NCBI RefSeq assembly: GCF_017161405.1
Contig: NZ_CP071051.1
Span: 2,108,001-2,172,000 of the forward strand
Direction of reading: 5' to 3'
DNA length: 64,000 nucleotides
Source: Leucobacter sp. CX169
GTDB taxonomy: Bacteria; Actinomycetota; Actinomycetes; Actinomycetales; Microbacteriaceae
The notes under the pieces were generated by a model. That model saw nothing but the letters and a program-made list of their open reading frames with translations. It was not told where the DNA came from and ran no database searches. Both the position numbers and the translations under genes were made by a program. Below, piece by piece: positions 23,302-31,262 of this stretch (the first letter of the stretch is position 1; every line of letters starts with the position of its first letter).

Positions 23302-24954
23302 TCAGTTCGCGCTCCTTCGCGCCCGCGCCCGTAGCTGCAGCGCGGCCCCAAACCCGAGCAGCAGGAAGCCGCCCGCCGAGAACAGCGCGACGCGTGATGC
23401 GTCCGCAAGCCCGTCGGAAAGGGCCTGCGCGACCGCCGGCCCCGACTCTCCCAGCTTGCCCGTCGTCCCTTCGCCGCGAATCTGCGCAATCGTGCCTCCC
23501 GCACTGAGCTCGGTCGCCTGCACAATCTGAGACGCACCTTCCGACGGCAGACCAGCGACCGCGTCCATGCGTGCGGGCAGCGCCGTCGCGAGGCCTGCAG
23601 CGAGCACCGCCCCAATCAGCGCAGTGCCGAGCGCCGATCCGATTTGACGCACGGTGCTCTGCGTCGCCGAGCCCTGGCCCGACTCCTCCGGCGGAATATC
23701 CGCGAGCACCGTGCCCGTGAGCTGGGCGGAAGCGAGCCCCAGACCCACCCCATAGACGACGAGCACGAGGGCCAAAATCCAGGGCGAGACGCCCGCACCG
23801 AGTAGCAGCGCAGTCAGGGCAACGCCCACCACCTCAATGCCGAGGCCGAGCAACACGACGTTGGGCGCACCCATCCGCTCGGACAGGTGCCGGGCCGAGG
23901 CGCCCGACAGAAATGCGCCGACGCCCATCGCCGCGAGCACGAGTCCCGCTCCGAGTGTGGTGAGCCCCATCGCGTTCACAATGAAGAGCGGGAGCACGAA
24001 GAGCAGGCCAAACTCGCCGATCGCGACGCAGAGCGCGGTGAGGTTGCCCCAGGTGAAGGTCGGGACGGTGAACAGCTGAAGGTCAAGAATCGCCGATCGG
24101 CCATTCTTCGCGCGATGGCGCTCCCAGAGGATGAACAGCACGATCCCGATGATCCCGATGATGCCGGCGATCGGCACCGGCGAAAGCGGAGCCGTCTGCG
24201 GCCACACCCAACCGAAAATCTTGAAGTCCGCAATCGGGGCCCACCAGCCGAGCGAGCGCCCCTCGATCATCGCGAAGACCAGTCCGCCAAAGCCGATAAC
24301 GCTCAGCAAGAGCCCGTCGACGTCGAGACCGCGCGCGGTGATGACGGCCCGGGTCTCGTCGACCGTGAGAAACGCGCCGACGAGCAGGATCGCGCCGATC
24401 GGCAGGTTCACGATGAAGATCCACTGCCAGCTGAACGCGGTGGTCAGCCAGCCGCCGAGCAATGGACCGAAGGCCGCCATGCCCGAGATCACCGCGCCCC
24501 AGACACCGAACGCGACGGCGCGGTCACGTCCGCGGAAGGTGGCGTTGACCGTCGAGAGCGTCGTGGGCAAAATCAGCGCGCCGCCCACGCCTTGCACGAC
24601 CCGGGCCAAGATCAGGGATCCTGCCGTGCCCGAAAGCGCCGCCAGCAAGCTGCCCGCCATGAAGACCAGGATCCCGACCACGAGCATGCGGCGACGCCCG
24701 AGCCGGTCGCCCAGGCGCCCAGCCGTGAGCAGCAGTGCCGCAAAGACCACCGAGTAGATGCCGTTCACCCACTGGGCGTCGCTGAGATCAAGCTGCAACT
24801 CGTCGATCAGCACCGGCAGGGCGACGCCCACGATGGTGCCGTCGAGCACGATCATCGACAGCGCCCCGGCGAGCACGCCGAGACCGATCCAGCGACGGCG
24901 ACCCGAGTGCGTTTCGGCTTCAGCGCCTGACGAGACGCCCACATTGTCGGTCAT
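23302..24954 (-). CDS. DHA2-family MFS drug transporter
   Basis: About 550 residues with 14 helices. Motif A is LGDRLGRRRMLVVG, helix 1 carries VLDGTIVGVALPVL, and helix 5 has GVWGAVISGMAAFGPLLGGW. A long loop between helices 9 and 10 region is hydrophilic (WERHRAKNGRSAI). Start ATG 24954 has GGGGGTT upstream; the open frame extends 120 residues further but that part reads as noise. No local regulator is evident. Confidence 0.9.
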   Translation of the reverse strand: MTDNVGVSSGAEAETHSGRRRWIGLGVLAGALSMIVLDGTIVGVALPVLIDELQLDLSDAQWVNGIYSVVFAALLLTAGRLGDRLGRRRMLVVGILVFMAGSLLAALSGTAGSLILARVVQGVGGALILPTTLSTVNATFRGRDRAVAFGVWGAVISGMAAFGPLLGGWLTTAFSWQWIFIVNLPIGAILLVGAFLTVDETRAVITARGLDVDGLLLSVIGFGGLVFAMIEGRSLGWWAPIADFKIFGWVWPQTAPLSPVPIAGIIGIIGIVLFILWERHRAKNGRSAILDLQLFTVPTFTWGNLTALCVAIGEFGLLFVLPLFIVNAMGLTTLGAGLVLAAMGVGAFLSGASARHLSERMGAPNVVLLGLGIEVVGVALTALLLGAGVSPWILALVLVVYGVGLGLASAQLTGTVLADIPPEESGQGSATQSTVRQIGSALGTALIGAVLAAGLATALPARMDAVAGLPSEGASQIVQATELSAGGTIAQIRGEGTTGKLGESGPAVAQALSDGLADASRVALFSAGGFLLLGFGAALQLRARARRSAN

Positions 24955-25134
24955 GCCAACCCCCAACGCCCCGGAGGGAATGCCGAGGCTTTCCGCGCCC
25001 AGTCTAGGAGTATCGAAAGTCTGGCCGGTATCAACCAAAGGGTTGACTCCTGACGACAATCGACACCGAAGCCCCGCCCCGACACGACCTTCCCAGTAAC
25101 GTAAGCACCCCGACGTGAATATTTGGAGGCTGCA

Positions 25135-27102
25135 ATGAGCGGTGTGATCTGGACCAGCGTGCTCATGGTCGTCCTCACGATTGTGTTCTTGGTAGTGCTC
25201 TCGAGCTTCGCCTCCCGCGTGCTCGGGGTGCGCATCGGCCTCGGCAGGCTGCTCCTCGCTGGCGCACTGGGCCTCGGGCTCGAGGTAGGCTTCGAGTCCC
25301 GATTCGTCTGGGGCCAAGAGGACAGCACCCTGGCTCTCCTGCCGCTCCAGATCGGCATCATTTTCCTCGTCTCGATCGCCACGCTGGTGATTGCCGAGCT
25401 CCTGGTGCCCACGGGTTCCATCCCTCGCCCCGACCAGTGGCTGCCGTCGTTCAAGGCGCGCGTTGCGCGCACACGGCGGTACACCGAGATCTCCCGAATC
25501 GCCTTCCGCAGCGGCCTGATCCCGTTTCGACTCAACACCGAGCGCACGAGCGCGGGCATCGCCGAGCGCACGAAGCAGGCGCGTGCGCTGCGGAGCGCAC
25601 TCGAGAGCGCCGGCGGCGCGTTCGTGAAGCTCGGGCAGCTCCTCTCAACCCGCACCGACCTGCTGCCTCCCGAGTTTCTCGCCGAGCTGTCGCAGCTGCA
25701 GCAGCGGGTACCGCCTGCCGAGTGGACCGAGGTCAAAGCGCTGCTTGAGGAGGAGCTCGGCGGCCCGGTCGACAGGTTCTTCGCCGAGTTCAACGAGACG
25801 CCCCTCGCCGCGGCGTCAATCGGCCAGGTCCACCGCGCGACGCTACTCACCGGCGAGCTCGTCGCGGTCAAGGTGCAGCGGCCCCGGATCACGCCGCTCG
25901 TCGAGCGCGACCTCGACATCACGCTGCGCCTCGCCGCCCAGCTCGAGCGCACGACCAGCTGGGGGCGCGACCTCGGCATTCAGGCGCTCGTCGAGAACTT
26001 CGCCGAGAGCCTGCGTGAAGAACTCGACTACCGCGTTGAGGCGAGCAACATCTCGGCCATGGCGATCACGCAGGCGAAGCACCCCGAGGGCGAACGCGTC
26101 GGGATTCCCCGCCACTACCCCGCGCTGTGCACCGGCAAGGTCTTTGTGATGGAGCTGGTCGTGGGCGAGACCCTGAGCGACCCTCGCGCGTTCACCAAGC
26201 ACCCGGAGGCGGAGCGCATCGAGCAGGCGAACCGACTGCTCCGCTCCACGCTCACGCAGATCATCGAGGACGGCGTCTTTCACTCCGACCTGCACCCGGG
26301 CAACATCATTCTCCGCGGCGACGGCGAGATCGTCCTGCTCGACTTTGGTTCGATCGGACGCCTCGACTCCGAGCTTCGCGCGCAGATCGGCGAGGTCCTG
26401 CTTGCGTTCTACCGCGGCGACTCGGGCGCCTTCGCTGACGCGTTGCTCGGCTTCGTCGAACTGCCCGACGAGATTGACGAGACGGCACTCAGGCGTCAAC
26501 TCGGCGTGTTCGTCGCGACGAAGCTCGGCCCGGGCTCGGCCATCGACGTGACGGTGTTCCAAGAGATGATGCGGCTGTTGACTACGAACCGGATCGCGGT
26601 GCCCGCCGAGCTCGCGACCGCGTTCCGCGCGATCGCCACCCTCGAGGGAACGCTTCGCCATCTGAGCCCCGATTTCGACATGCTCAGTGAGGCCAGCGGC
26701 TATGCAGCGGACCGGGTCACACGAGGGTTCTCCCCCAAGGCAGTGTTCACTTCGTTCAGCGACGAGCTCGCCTCGATCCTGCCGATCGCGCGCCGCCTGC
26801 CCAAGCGCCTCGACCAGCTCGCCGGGACGATTGCTGACGGCCGCCTCAAGATCAACATGCGCTTGTTCGCCGATCGGCGAGATCGTGACCTGGTCCGCAG
26901 CCTCGTCAACCTGATCGCGGCGAGCTTCTTGGCGGCGGCGTTCGGCATCATGGCGGCGATGATGCTCGTGAGCACCAGCGGGCCGGAGGTCACGGAGGGC
27001 ATGACCCTCTTCCAGATCTTCGGCTATCTCCTCGTCGTGCTCTCGGGAATTCTCACCCTGCGCGTACTCTTTGACCTGTTCAGGATCCGCCCGCGGGAGT
27101 AA
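25135..27102 (+). CDS. AarF/UbiB (ABC1) family atypical kinase
   Basis: About 655 residues. Two N-terminal membrane helices and two at the C-terminus bracket an ABC1 kinase-like domain: KLGQLLSTRTDLLP (KxGQ motif), the Ala-rich AAASIGQVH, VAVKVQRP, ELDYRVEASN, GVFHSDLHPGNI and LLDFGSIGR. UbiB/COQ8-type proteins support quinone or lipid homeostasis; in actinobacteria with menaquinone the exact role is unknown. ATG 25135 follows GGAGG. A 619-residue open frame antisense to it is a shadow. Confidence 0.9.
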   Translation: MSGVIWTSVLMVVLTIVFLVVLSSFASRVLGVRIGLGRLLLAGALGLGLEVGFESRFVWGQEDSTLALLPLQIGIIFLVSIATLVIAELLVPTGSIPRPDQWLPSFKARVARTRRYTEISRIAFRSGLIPFRLNTERTSAGIAERTKQARALRSALESAGGAFVKLGQLLSTRTDLLPPEFLAELSQLQQRVPPAEWTEVKALLEEELGGPVDRFFAEFNETPLAAASIGQVHRATLLTGELVAVKVQRPRITPLVERDLDITLRLAAQLERTTSWGRDLGIQALVENFAESLREELDYRVEASNISAMAITQAKHPEGERVGIPRHYPALCTGKVFVMELVVGETLSDPRAFTKHPEAERIEQANRLLRSTLTQIIEDGVFHSDLHPGNIILRGDGEIVLLDFGSIGRLDSELRAQIGEVLLAFYRGDSGAFADALLGFVELPDEIDETALRRQLGVFVATKLGPGSAIDVTVFQEMMRLLTTNRIAVPAELATAFRAIATLEGTLRHLSPDFDMLSEASGYAADRVTRGFSPKAVFTSFSDELASILPIARRLPKRLDQLAGTIADGRLKINMRLFADRRDRDLVRSLVNLIAASFLAAAFGIMAAMMLVSTSGPEVTEGMTLFQIFGYLLVVLSGILTLRVLFDLFRIRPRE

Positions 27103-29682: not shown

Positions 29683-29695
29683 CTCGGTTCGTGTG

Positions 29696-29729
29696 AAAGG
29701 TGCCAGGCCTCGGCCTGGCACCTTTTTCT
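29696..29729 (+). terminator. Rho-independent terminator
   Basis: AGGTGCCAGGCC (29698-29709), two bases, GGCCTGGCACCT (29712-29723): perfect 12-bp stem, extended by AA/TT, followed by TTTTCTT. It ends transcription of the alcohol dehydrogenase gene. Confidence 0.95.
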
Positions 29730-29755: not shown

Positions 29756-29784
29756 TTGCAATGGATACCCCCCCTGGGTATACG
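29756..29784 (+). promoter_or_regulatory. Promoter for MFS exporter
   Basis: -35 TTGCAA (29756-29761), exactly 17 bp, -10 TATACG (29779-29784). The two operator boxes overlap the spacer, -10 and start region. Confidence 0.65.
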
Positions 29785-29803
29785 CTATACCCCGTCCGGG
29801 TAT
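29765..29803. promoter_or_regulatory. Two tandem CsoR/FrmR/RcnR-type operator boxes
   Basis: ATACCC-CCCCT-GGGTAT (29765-29781) and ATACCC-CGTCC-GGGTAT (29787-29803). Half-sites are perfect mirror images, spacing is five in both, and the boxes repeat every 22 bp, two helical turns. C-rich tracts bounded by ATACC/GGTAT are the known form of CsoR, CstR, FrmR and RcnR operators. No such repressor is encoded in the window. Confidence 0.7.
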
Positions 29804-29831
29804 CCCCGGACCATGCCCCAGAGGAGTTCAC

Positions 29832-31262
29832 ATGTCACCCGCAAAGCCCATTTCAGCGACGAAGCGATGGCTCGGCCTGCTGTTGATAGCCACGGCGCAG
29901 TTCGTGGTCATCATGGACACGTCGATCATCGGCGTCGCGCTTCCCGACATTCAGCGAGACCTCGGCTTTACGCCGGAATCGCTGTCCTGGGTGTTCAACG
30001 CGTACGTGGTCGCCTTCGGTGGGCTCCTGCTGCTCGGCGGCCGCCTCGCCGATGCCTTCGGCGCGCGCAAGATATTTGTGCTGGGCTGGGTCATCCTGAT
30101 CGCCGGCTCGCTGCTCGCGGGCGCCGCGAATAGCGTCGGGCTCGAAATCGCCGGGCGCGCGATCCAGGGGGCCGGCTCCGCGCTGATCGCGCCAGCCGCA
30201 CTCACCCTGCTCATGCTGCTCTTTGGTGGTACCTCAGACCTGCCCAAGGCGTTCGCGATCTACGGCGCCGCTGCCCCCATCGGCGGCACCGCCGGCGTCT
30301 TCCTGGGCGGCGTGCTCACCGAGTTCGCCAGCTGGCCCTGGGTGTTCTACATCACCGTCCCGATCGCGCTCGTCGTGCTCGCTTTGACCGCTTCGACGCT
30401 CCCCCGGACTGTGCGCAAGGCGTCCGGATCGATCGACATCGCGGGCGCCGTCACCGCTACCGCCGGCCTCGCAGCCGTCGTGTACGCGGTCGCGAGCGCG
30501 CCCGAGGTCGGCTGGCTCACCCTCCAAACGATCGGCACGCTCGTCGCCGGCATCGCTTTGCTCGCCGTCTTCTTCGTCATCCAGGCGCGCAGCCGCAACC
30601 CGCTGCTGCGCCTCGGCCTGCTGCGGGCCCCCATGCTCGGCGCGGCGAACGGCGCGCAGCTACTGCTGGGCGCAGCGTGGGTCTCGATGTGGTTTTTCCT
30701 GAACCTGTATCTGCAGGAGGTCCTCGGCGCGAGCGCCTTCGCGGCGGGAGCCGCCCTTCTGCCAATAACCGGCCTCGTCGTGATCGTGATGATCGCACTG
30801 GCCCCGAGACTGCAGGCGAGATTCGGTGCGAAGTCGATGATTGTAAGTGGCCTCCTCCTCCTGGCGGTCGGGCTCGTCTGGCTTTCCTTCGTGCACCCCG
30901 ACGGCAACTACGCAGTCGACGTACTGCCCGCGGCCCTCGTGGCGGCGCTTGGAATGTCGCTCGCGTTCGTCCCCTCGCTCGGCACCGCGATCAACGCGGC
31001 GCCGCCCGCCGAGACCGGCGTCGCATCGGGGCTCGTGAGCACGAGCTACCAGATCGGCTCGGCGCTCGGGCTCGCCGTGCTCACCGCCGTCGTCTACGGG
31101 ATCTCGGGCACCGAGCCGTCGACCGCCGAGCTGACCGACGGGTATAGCGCGGCCTTCCTCGGCGCGGGGCTGCTCGCCCTCGCCGGCGCCGTCATCACGG
31201 CGCTCGCGATGCGACAGCCGTCGGCCACCTCCCCCGCGACCGAGGAGCTCGTCTCGGCGTAG
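29832..31262 (+). CDS. DHA2-family MFS transporter under probable CsoR-type control
   Basis: A 476-residue transporter with 14 helices. Helix 1 is IMDTSIIGVALPDIQRDLG, motif A is LADAFGARKIFVLGWV, helix 5 has YGAAAPIGGTAGVFLGG. Start ATG 29832 follows GAGGAG. Uniquely in this window it is preceded by two tandem CsoR-type operator boxes over the promoter, suggesting induction by a metal, aldehyde or sulfur species rather than by a drug-sensing TetR. Substrate unknown. Confidence 0.92.
   Translation: MSPAKPISATKRWLGLLLIATAQFVVIMDTSIIGVALPDIQRDLGFTPESLSWVFNAYVVAFGGLLLLGGRLADAFGARKIFVLGWVILIAGSLLAGAANSVGLEIAGRAIQGAGSALIAPAALTLLMLLFGGTSDLPKAFAIYGAAAPIGGTAGVFLGGVLTEFASWPWVFYITVPIALVVLALTASTLPRTVRKASGSIDIAGAVTATAGLAAVVYAVASAPEVGWLTLQTIGTLVAGIALLAVFFVIQARSRNPLLRLGLLRAPMLGAANGAQLLLGAAWVSMWFFLNLYLQEVLGASAFAAGAALLPITGLVVIVMIALAPRLQARFGAKSMIVSGLLLLAVGLVWLSFVHPDGNYAVDVLPAALVAALGMSLAFVPSLGTAINAAPPAETGVASGLVSTSYQIGSALGLAVLTAVVYGISGTEPSTAELTDGYSAAFLGAGLLALAGAVITALAMRQPSATSPATEELVSA

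Follow-up and report, generated by a model that had tools for sequence, protein, structure and literature searches.

A DHA2-type exporter with tandem CsoR-type boxes as a probable member of the copper regulon of Leucobacter sp. CX169

Which repressor, responding to which signal, would control a drug-type exporter of Leucobacter sp. CX169 whose promoter carries two CsoR-type boxes, and what might such a pump move? The gene lies in the window, the whole stretch of 64,000 nucleotides that was analysed (bases 2108001-2172000 of the 2.94-Mb single-contig genome, 66% GC). The features of the locus are the following:

29695..29726, + strand: predicted intrinsic terminator of the alcohol dehydrogenase gene that lies upstream, with a stem of 14 bp, a loop of 4 nt and a T tail (scan background about one per region)
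29756..29761, + strand: -35 element TTGCAA, read from the sequence (in several relatives, TTGACA stands at this distance from the box)
29765..29781, + strand: predicted CsoR operator box 1, ATACCCCCCCTGGGTAT, i.e. ATACCC-CCCCT-GGGTAT, a perfect palindrome of 17 bp
29779..29784, + strand: -10 element TATACG, read from the sequence, at 17-bp spacing from the -35 element and overlapped by box 1
29787..29803, + strand: predicted CsoR operator box 2, ATACCCCGTCCGGGTAT, i.e. ATACCC-CGTCC-GGGTAT, a perfect palindrome of 17 bp on the expected transcription start
29820..29826, + strand: ribosome-binding site AGAGGAG, read from the sequence (AGGAGG at the equivalent place in relatives)
29832..31262, + strand: DHA2-type MFS exporter with 14 transmembrane helices, 476 aa, a single-gene unit (MFS_1, 9.5e-50)

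The two ATACCC-N5-GGGTAT boxes were found exactly where the first-pass annotation of this DNA had placed them, 22 bp apart from start to start. Box 1 occupies the spacer between the -35 and -10 elements and the first half of the latter, so the claim that the pair covers spacer, -10 and start holds. The accompanying description of the promoter as a good one does not, as its strength is moderate, with four of the six consensus positions in the -35 element, and it was not among the matches of a consensus promoter scan. In several relatives the box lies inside a TTGACA-N17-TATACC promoter of the same layout. The terminator upstream can be read, short of proof, as setting the exporter apart as its own transcription unit; an operon of the alcohol dehydrogenase and the exporter was rejected because of this terminator between the genes. 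When the window was scanned for ATACCC-N5-GGGTAT with up to two mismatches, three matches were obtained compared to 0.44 expected, and none of 100 shuffles gave three.

The published type-2 consensus of the Streptomyces lividans CsoR has the core ATACCC/GGGTAT around N5, plus TAC-N9-GTA (PMC3902906), and box 1 is identical to that core. Both boxes at the exporter show this core, the TAC-N9-GTA inverted repeat and two G/C tracts, and they overlap the promoter as it is inferred from the sequence. Type-1 operators, as defined for RcnR and FrmR, have one G/C tract flanked by short inverted repeats (PMC12724321), a definition that the exporter boxes do not fit.

Absence of the boxes from relatives of the exporter had been named in advance as grounds for giving up CsoR-type control, and the opposite was found. 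A search over 84,980 genomes yielded 80 loci, and an exact TACCC-N5-GGGTA within 200 bp upstream of the start was present in 69 of the 75 actinomycete orthologues with readable upstream sequence; four of the remaining six carry a version with one mismatch. The spacer was N5 in 110 of the 112 boxes counted, the other two being N6 and N8, and no N2, N3, N4, N7 or N9 box was detected upstream of the 75 genes. In contrast, 27 DHA2 paralogues (43% identity or less), drawn from the same bacterial family, all lack an exact N5 box upstream (Fisher 3e-19, a value that overstates independence, as the orthologues are kin to each other). The stronger argument is that the boxes occur in more than 20 genera, in which their cores and positions differ. 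A comparison of 30 close orthologues showed the arms of box 1 to be nearly constant, unlike the flank upstream of it, and few of them have an exact box 2. Therefore, box 1 is taken as the core operator. A second box 22-23 bp downstream was seen in about a dozen relatives and is degenerate in many others. The exporter itself is patchily distributed, being present in only two of the 59 other genera in the family sample, which fits horizontal transfer.

The surroundings of the orthologues point towards copper. A copper ATPase, a CopZ-like protein, a YHS protein, CsoR or a recurrent unnamed protein was encoded within about 4 kb in some 48 of 77 orthologue loci, a few of which depend on weak or antisense ATPase matches, compared to none of 17 loci of DHA2 paralogues with copper genes at that distance. 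In about 29 of the 77 loci no copper gene was seen within that distance, and the exporter of the present genome has none adjacent. Four Rhodococcus plasmids carry the exporter, and in the two that were inspected it stands among genes for CopA, HMA, four-helix copper-binding and CsoR proteins. As it is found on such plasmid-borne copper islands in Rhodococcus, it can therefore move with them. A protein of about 324 aa without a Pfam match, encoded between CopZ and the copper ATPase, recurs in about 25 orthologue loci and is likely an unnamed component of the copper islands.

The same box was also looked for in the rest of the genome, as the first-pass annotation had proposed. Only five perfect copies exist in the 2.94 Mb, against zero copies of the reversed control pattern. 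Two of them lie at the exporter promoter and the other three are all at copper loci: a pair at 2898997 and 2899029, 32 bp apart, lies ahead of genes for a CopZ-like chaperone and a copper ATPase (copZ-copA), and a single copy at 1630646 lies at a copper-ATPase island. In addition, a copy with one mismatch, at 2466709, lies in front of a solitary csoR gene at a distance of about 60 bp. Thus, copZA and csoR, which are known copper targets, share the box of the exporter in this genome, with one mismatch in the case of csoR. A looser pattern (TACCC-N3..7-GGGTA) added N4 sites at 183 kb and 931 kb, each at a CstR-type gene, as well as a small number of sites that are likely due to chance. The N4 boxes at the CstR-type genes are in tandem, at genome positions 183487/183515 and 931618/931644, outside the window. 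Sites with N5 or N3/N4 spacers at 1014431, 1859515 and 2662807 were discarded as regulatory elements, as they are inside reading frames, lack copper genes and seem to have arisen by chance. A second DHA2/EmrB-type transporter in the window (23302-25317, minus strand) has no CsoR box upstream.

A genome without any CsoR-family gene would likewise have spoken against the proposal, and five such genes were found. The nearest is about 329 kb from the exporter, in agreement with the observation that no such repressor is encoded nearby. That the repressor is encoded elsewhere is thus correct for this genome, although it is not an unusual trait, as csoR and the exporter are no more than about 5 kb apart in only about 15 of 77 orthologue loci. 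Three of the five proteins have the Cys-His-Cys ligands of copper-sensing CsoR; one is the product of the solitary csoR (genome 2466804), and two are encoded in islands. The other two lack the histidine (Cys-Cys) and are CstR-like, and the gene of one of these adjoins a persulfide dioxygenase-rhodanese gene. None of the five reaches the curated cut-offs of the RicR, RcnR or FrmR models. With three candidate copper CsoRs and possible crosstalk, the cognate repressor of the exporter could be any of several. CsoR-family genes were present in all 40 orthologue-bearing genomes searched; in the 37 genomes whose best matches were read, 30 have the Cys-His-Cys type, and the seven without a strong match have a Cys-His-His type. 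Cys-His-His CsoR proteins were seen in Agromyces, in Leifsonia Root4 and in a Microbacterium, and this N5 box precedes several of the Agromyces ones by about 50 bp. A Cys-His-His CsoR is a working copper sensor in Thermus.

The length of the spacer was followed in a blind test that started from box patterns and not from genes, with one site per genus over 60 genera of the family. A copper ATPase, CopZ, a copper-type CsoR or this exporter was found at 25 of 29 N5 loci, whereas none of 21 N4 loci had a copper gene or this exporter and five had CstR (Fisher 4e-10, which again overstates independence). The reversed control pattern was absent from the genomes searched. In relatives, every exact box seen ahead of a Cys-His-Cys CsoR gene had an N5 spacer, as did the boxes of the Cys-His-His type, whereas those of CstR genes had N4, with N3 boxes around one CstR gene. 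A difference of one base in the spacer thus seems to separate the copper CsoR regulon from the CstR regulon across the family.

The control by a CsoR-type repressor claimed at the outset is strongly supported at the sequence level, with five CsoR-family genes in the genome and the boxes conserved upstream of most orthologues, and the exporter very probably belongs to the copper (CsoR) regulon. The signal had been left among copper, nickel/cobalt, formaldehyde and persulfide; since the spacer is N5, the neighbours are copper genes and the repressors are Cys-His-Cys or Cys-His-His CsoRs, it is likely to be copper, and the other three are disfavoured. A persulfide sensor of the CstR type, which would place the exporter in sulfide detoxification, could be imagined because two of the paralogues encoded in the genome are CstR-like (Cys-Cys, no His) and have tandem boxes that closely resemble those of the exporter. 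Such a role is highly improbable, as the CstR boxes are N4 both here and in relatives, none of the 112 boxes counted upstream of exporter orthologues has an N4 spacer, and copper genes, not sulfur genes, recur beside the exporter. It is most improbable that the boxes are bound by a nickel/cobalt sensor resembling RcnR or InrS or by a formaldehyde sensor resembling FrmR: the zinc alcohol dehydrogenase directly upstream would fit formaldehyde and InrS does govern an MFS nickel permease, but no protein of the genome is at the curated RcnR or FrmR cut-offs, the operator is of type 2, unlike the published type 1 of RcnR-like repressors, and the alcohol dehydrogenase is split from the exporter by the terminator and is not among its recurrent neighbours. 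Palindromes with G/C tracts can also arise in a genome of 66% GC in the absence of any regulator, but the probability that the boxes are of this kind is negligible; the reversed control was absent from the genomes searched, and a chance origin is refuted by the conservation of the box upstream of the orthologues.

Control by a copper-responsive CsoR would operate as follows. At low free Cu(I), apo-CsoR tetramers from the distant csoR gene would bind both boxes and, sitting on the -35/-10 spacer, the -10 element and the transcription start, would block RNA polymerase. A rise in cytosolic Cu(I) would lead to its binding at the Cys-His-Cys site and to the release of CsoR, and the exporter would then be made alongside CopZ and the copper ATPases. 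The protein would act as a proton-coupled antiporter that aids the cell under copper stress. Its most likely cargo, as a guess, would be a small organic molecule, either a carrier of copper or one that turns toxic in its presence.

Assignment of the protein to the DHA2 group is based on its MFS domain and on a predicted model (pLDDT 87) with a 14-helix fold, for which the best matches among solved structures were EfpA and QacA. The EmrB-type model TIGR00711 gave 1.1e-63 and 215.7 bits, below the curated cut-off of 230.2, so the protein is not placed in that subfamily. In QacA, a triad is formed by D34, Y63 and R114 (PMC10425836); D29, Y58 and R109 of the exporter, conserved in the orthologues, match it with a constant offset of 5, and this suggests proton coupling. 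The signature residues of the clade are M28, T30, N56, W86, E105, M128, W283, M286, W287, N291, M320, Y406 and S410, of which the four methionines are kept without exception in 74 orthologues and hardly occur in the 27 paralogues. Cysteine is absent from all 74 orthologues, and histidine averages 0.6 per protein compared to 4.6 in the paralogues. This composition argues against a thiol copper site and leaves the methionines as possible ligands; speculatively, the scarcity of both residues may reflect life under copper stress. The copper importer CcoA carries motifs of the M/H/C-x3-M/H/C type (MxxxM / HxxxM), and no such motif was found in the exporter protein of the window.

These features bear on what the exporter moves. 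A small organic compound is the favoured guess over export of copper or of lipids. With copper control accepted, it is possible that the pump exports Cu(I) or a copper complex and not an organic toxin: its place in the copper regulon is a dedicated one, and the methionines at 28, 128, 286 and 320 are set apart from the paralogues. Against this, cysteine is missing and histidine almost so in the 74 orthologues, the protein of the window lacks the M/H/C-x3-M/H/C motif, and P-type ATPases already export Cu(I). The more specific proposal of a new class of copper-stress exporters, in which this DHA2 clade would pass Cu(I) or a complex of copper with a small molecule along a cysteine-free path lined by methionine and tryptophan, beside the P-type copper ATPases, is doubtful. 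That the protein moves or flips lipids, as EfpA is reported to do, and would be induced by copper for the repair or remodelling of copper-damaged membrane, is unlikely; the closest solved structures are of EfpA, one of them with bound lipids, but identity to EfpA is only about 30% and no lipid genes recur beside the exporter.

Compared to known systems, the case is closest in its operator to the CsoR regulon of S. lividans (PMC3902906), which has the type-2 N5 operator and a copper CsoR with copZ-copA targets. The targets known there are csoR, copZA1 and copZA2, to which the DHA2 exporter, with tandem boxes 22 bp apart, would be added here. In Synechocystis, InrS, a member of the CsoR family, controls nrsD, which encodes a nickel permease of the MFS (PMC4182526). 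There too, a repressor encoded away from its target governs an MFS transporter, and nrsD also responds to copper; however, InrS is mainly a nickel sensor, and both transporter and operator are others. In Mycobacterium tuberculosis, the membrane permease Rv0849 belongs to a region under the control of RicR (PMC7924339). RicR is similarly a CsoR-family copper repressor that is solitary and acts on loci that are scattered, although Rv0849 is in an operon with lpqS and cysK2, and the likeness is one of regulation. EfpA and QacA share the 14-helix DHA2 fold with the exporter, and QacA the positions of its triad, but identity is 24-30%, QacA is under QacR, and at the position that this offset assigns to the acidic D61 of QacA the exporter has N56.

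The earlier remark that control of a drug-type MFS by the CsoR family would be new is thus too broad in view of InrS-nrsD and RicR-Rv0849, and keeps its value for this DHA2 clade, for which no report as a CsoR target was found. A full-text search of open-licence papers found no report of a CsoR-controlled DHA2 or MFS copper exporter, and transporters and the MFS are unmentioned in an inference of CsoR regulons from gut metagenomes (PMC4938975). The operator, the kind of repressor and MFS pumps under the CsoR family are already known; a DHA2 clade in a copper CsoR regulon is the part for which no precedent was found.

Copper tolerance of actinomycetes is usually attributed to P-type ATPases, chaperones and oxidases. 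With the box kept in more than 20 genera, often among copper genes, the exporter probably contributes to the tolerance of excess copper in these bacteria in a way that has been overlooked. If so, either a small molecule that needs to be expelled is formed or brought in under copper stress, or copper leaves by an undescribed route. Copper exposure would then turn on a drug-type efflux pump, and cross-protection between copper and drugs is directly testable. A relative with 47% identity to the exporter was also seen beside a copper ATPase, on a contig of a metagenome-assembled genome labelled Nitrosopumilus (archaeal), which may be a binning error or a sign of wider spread.
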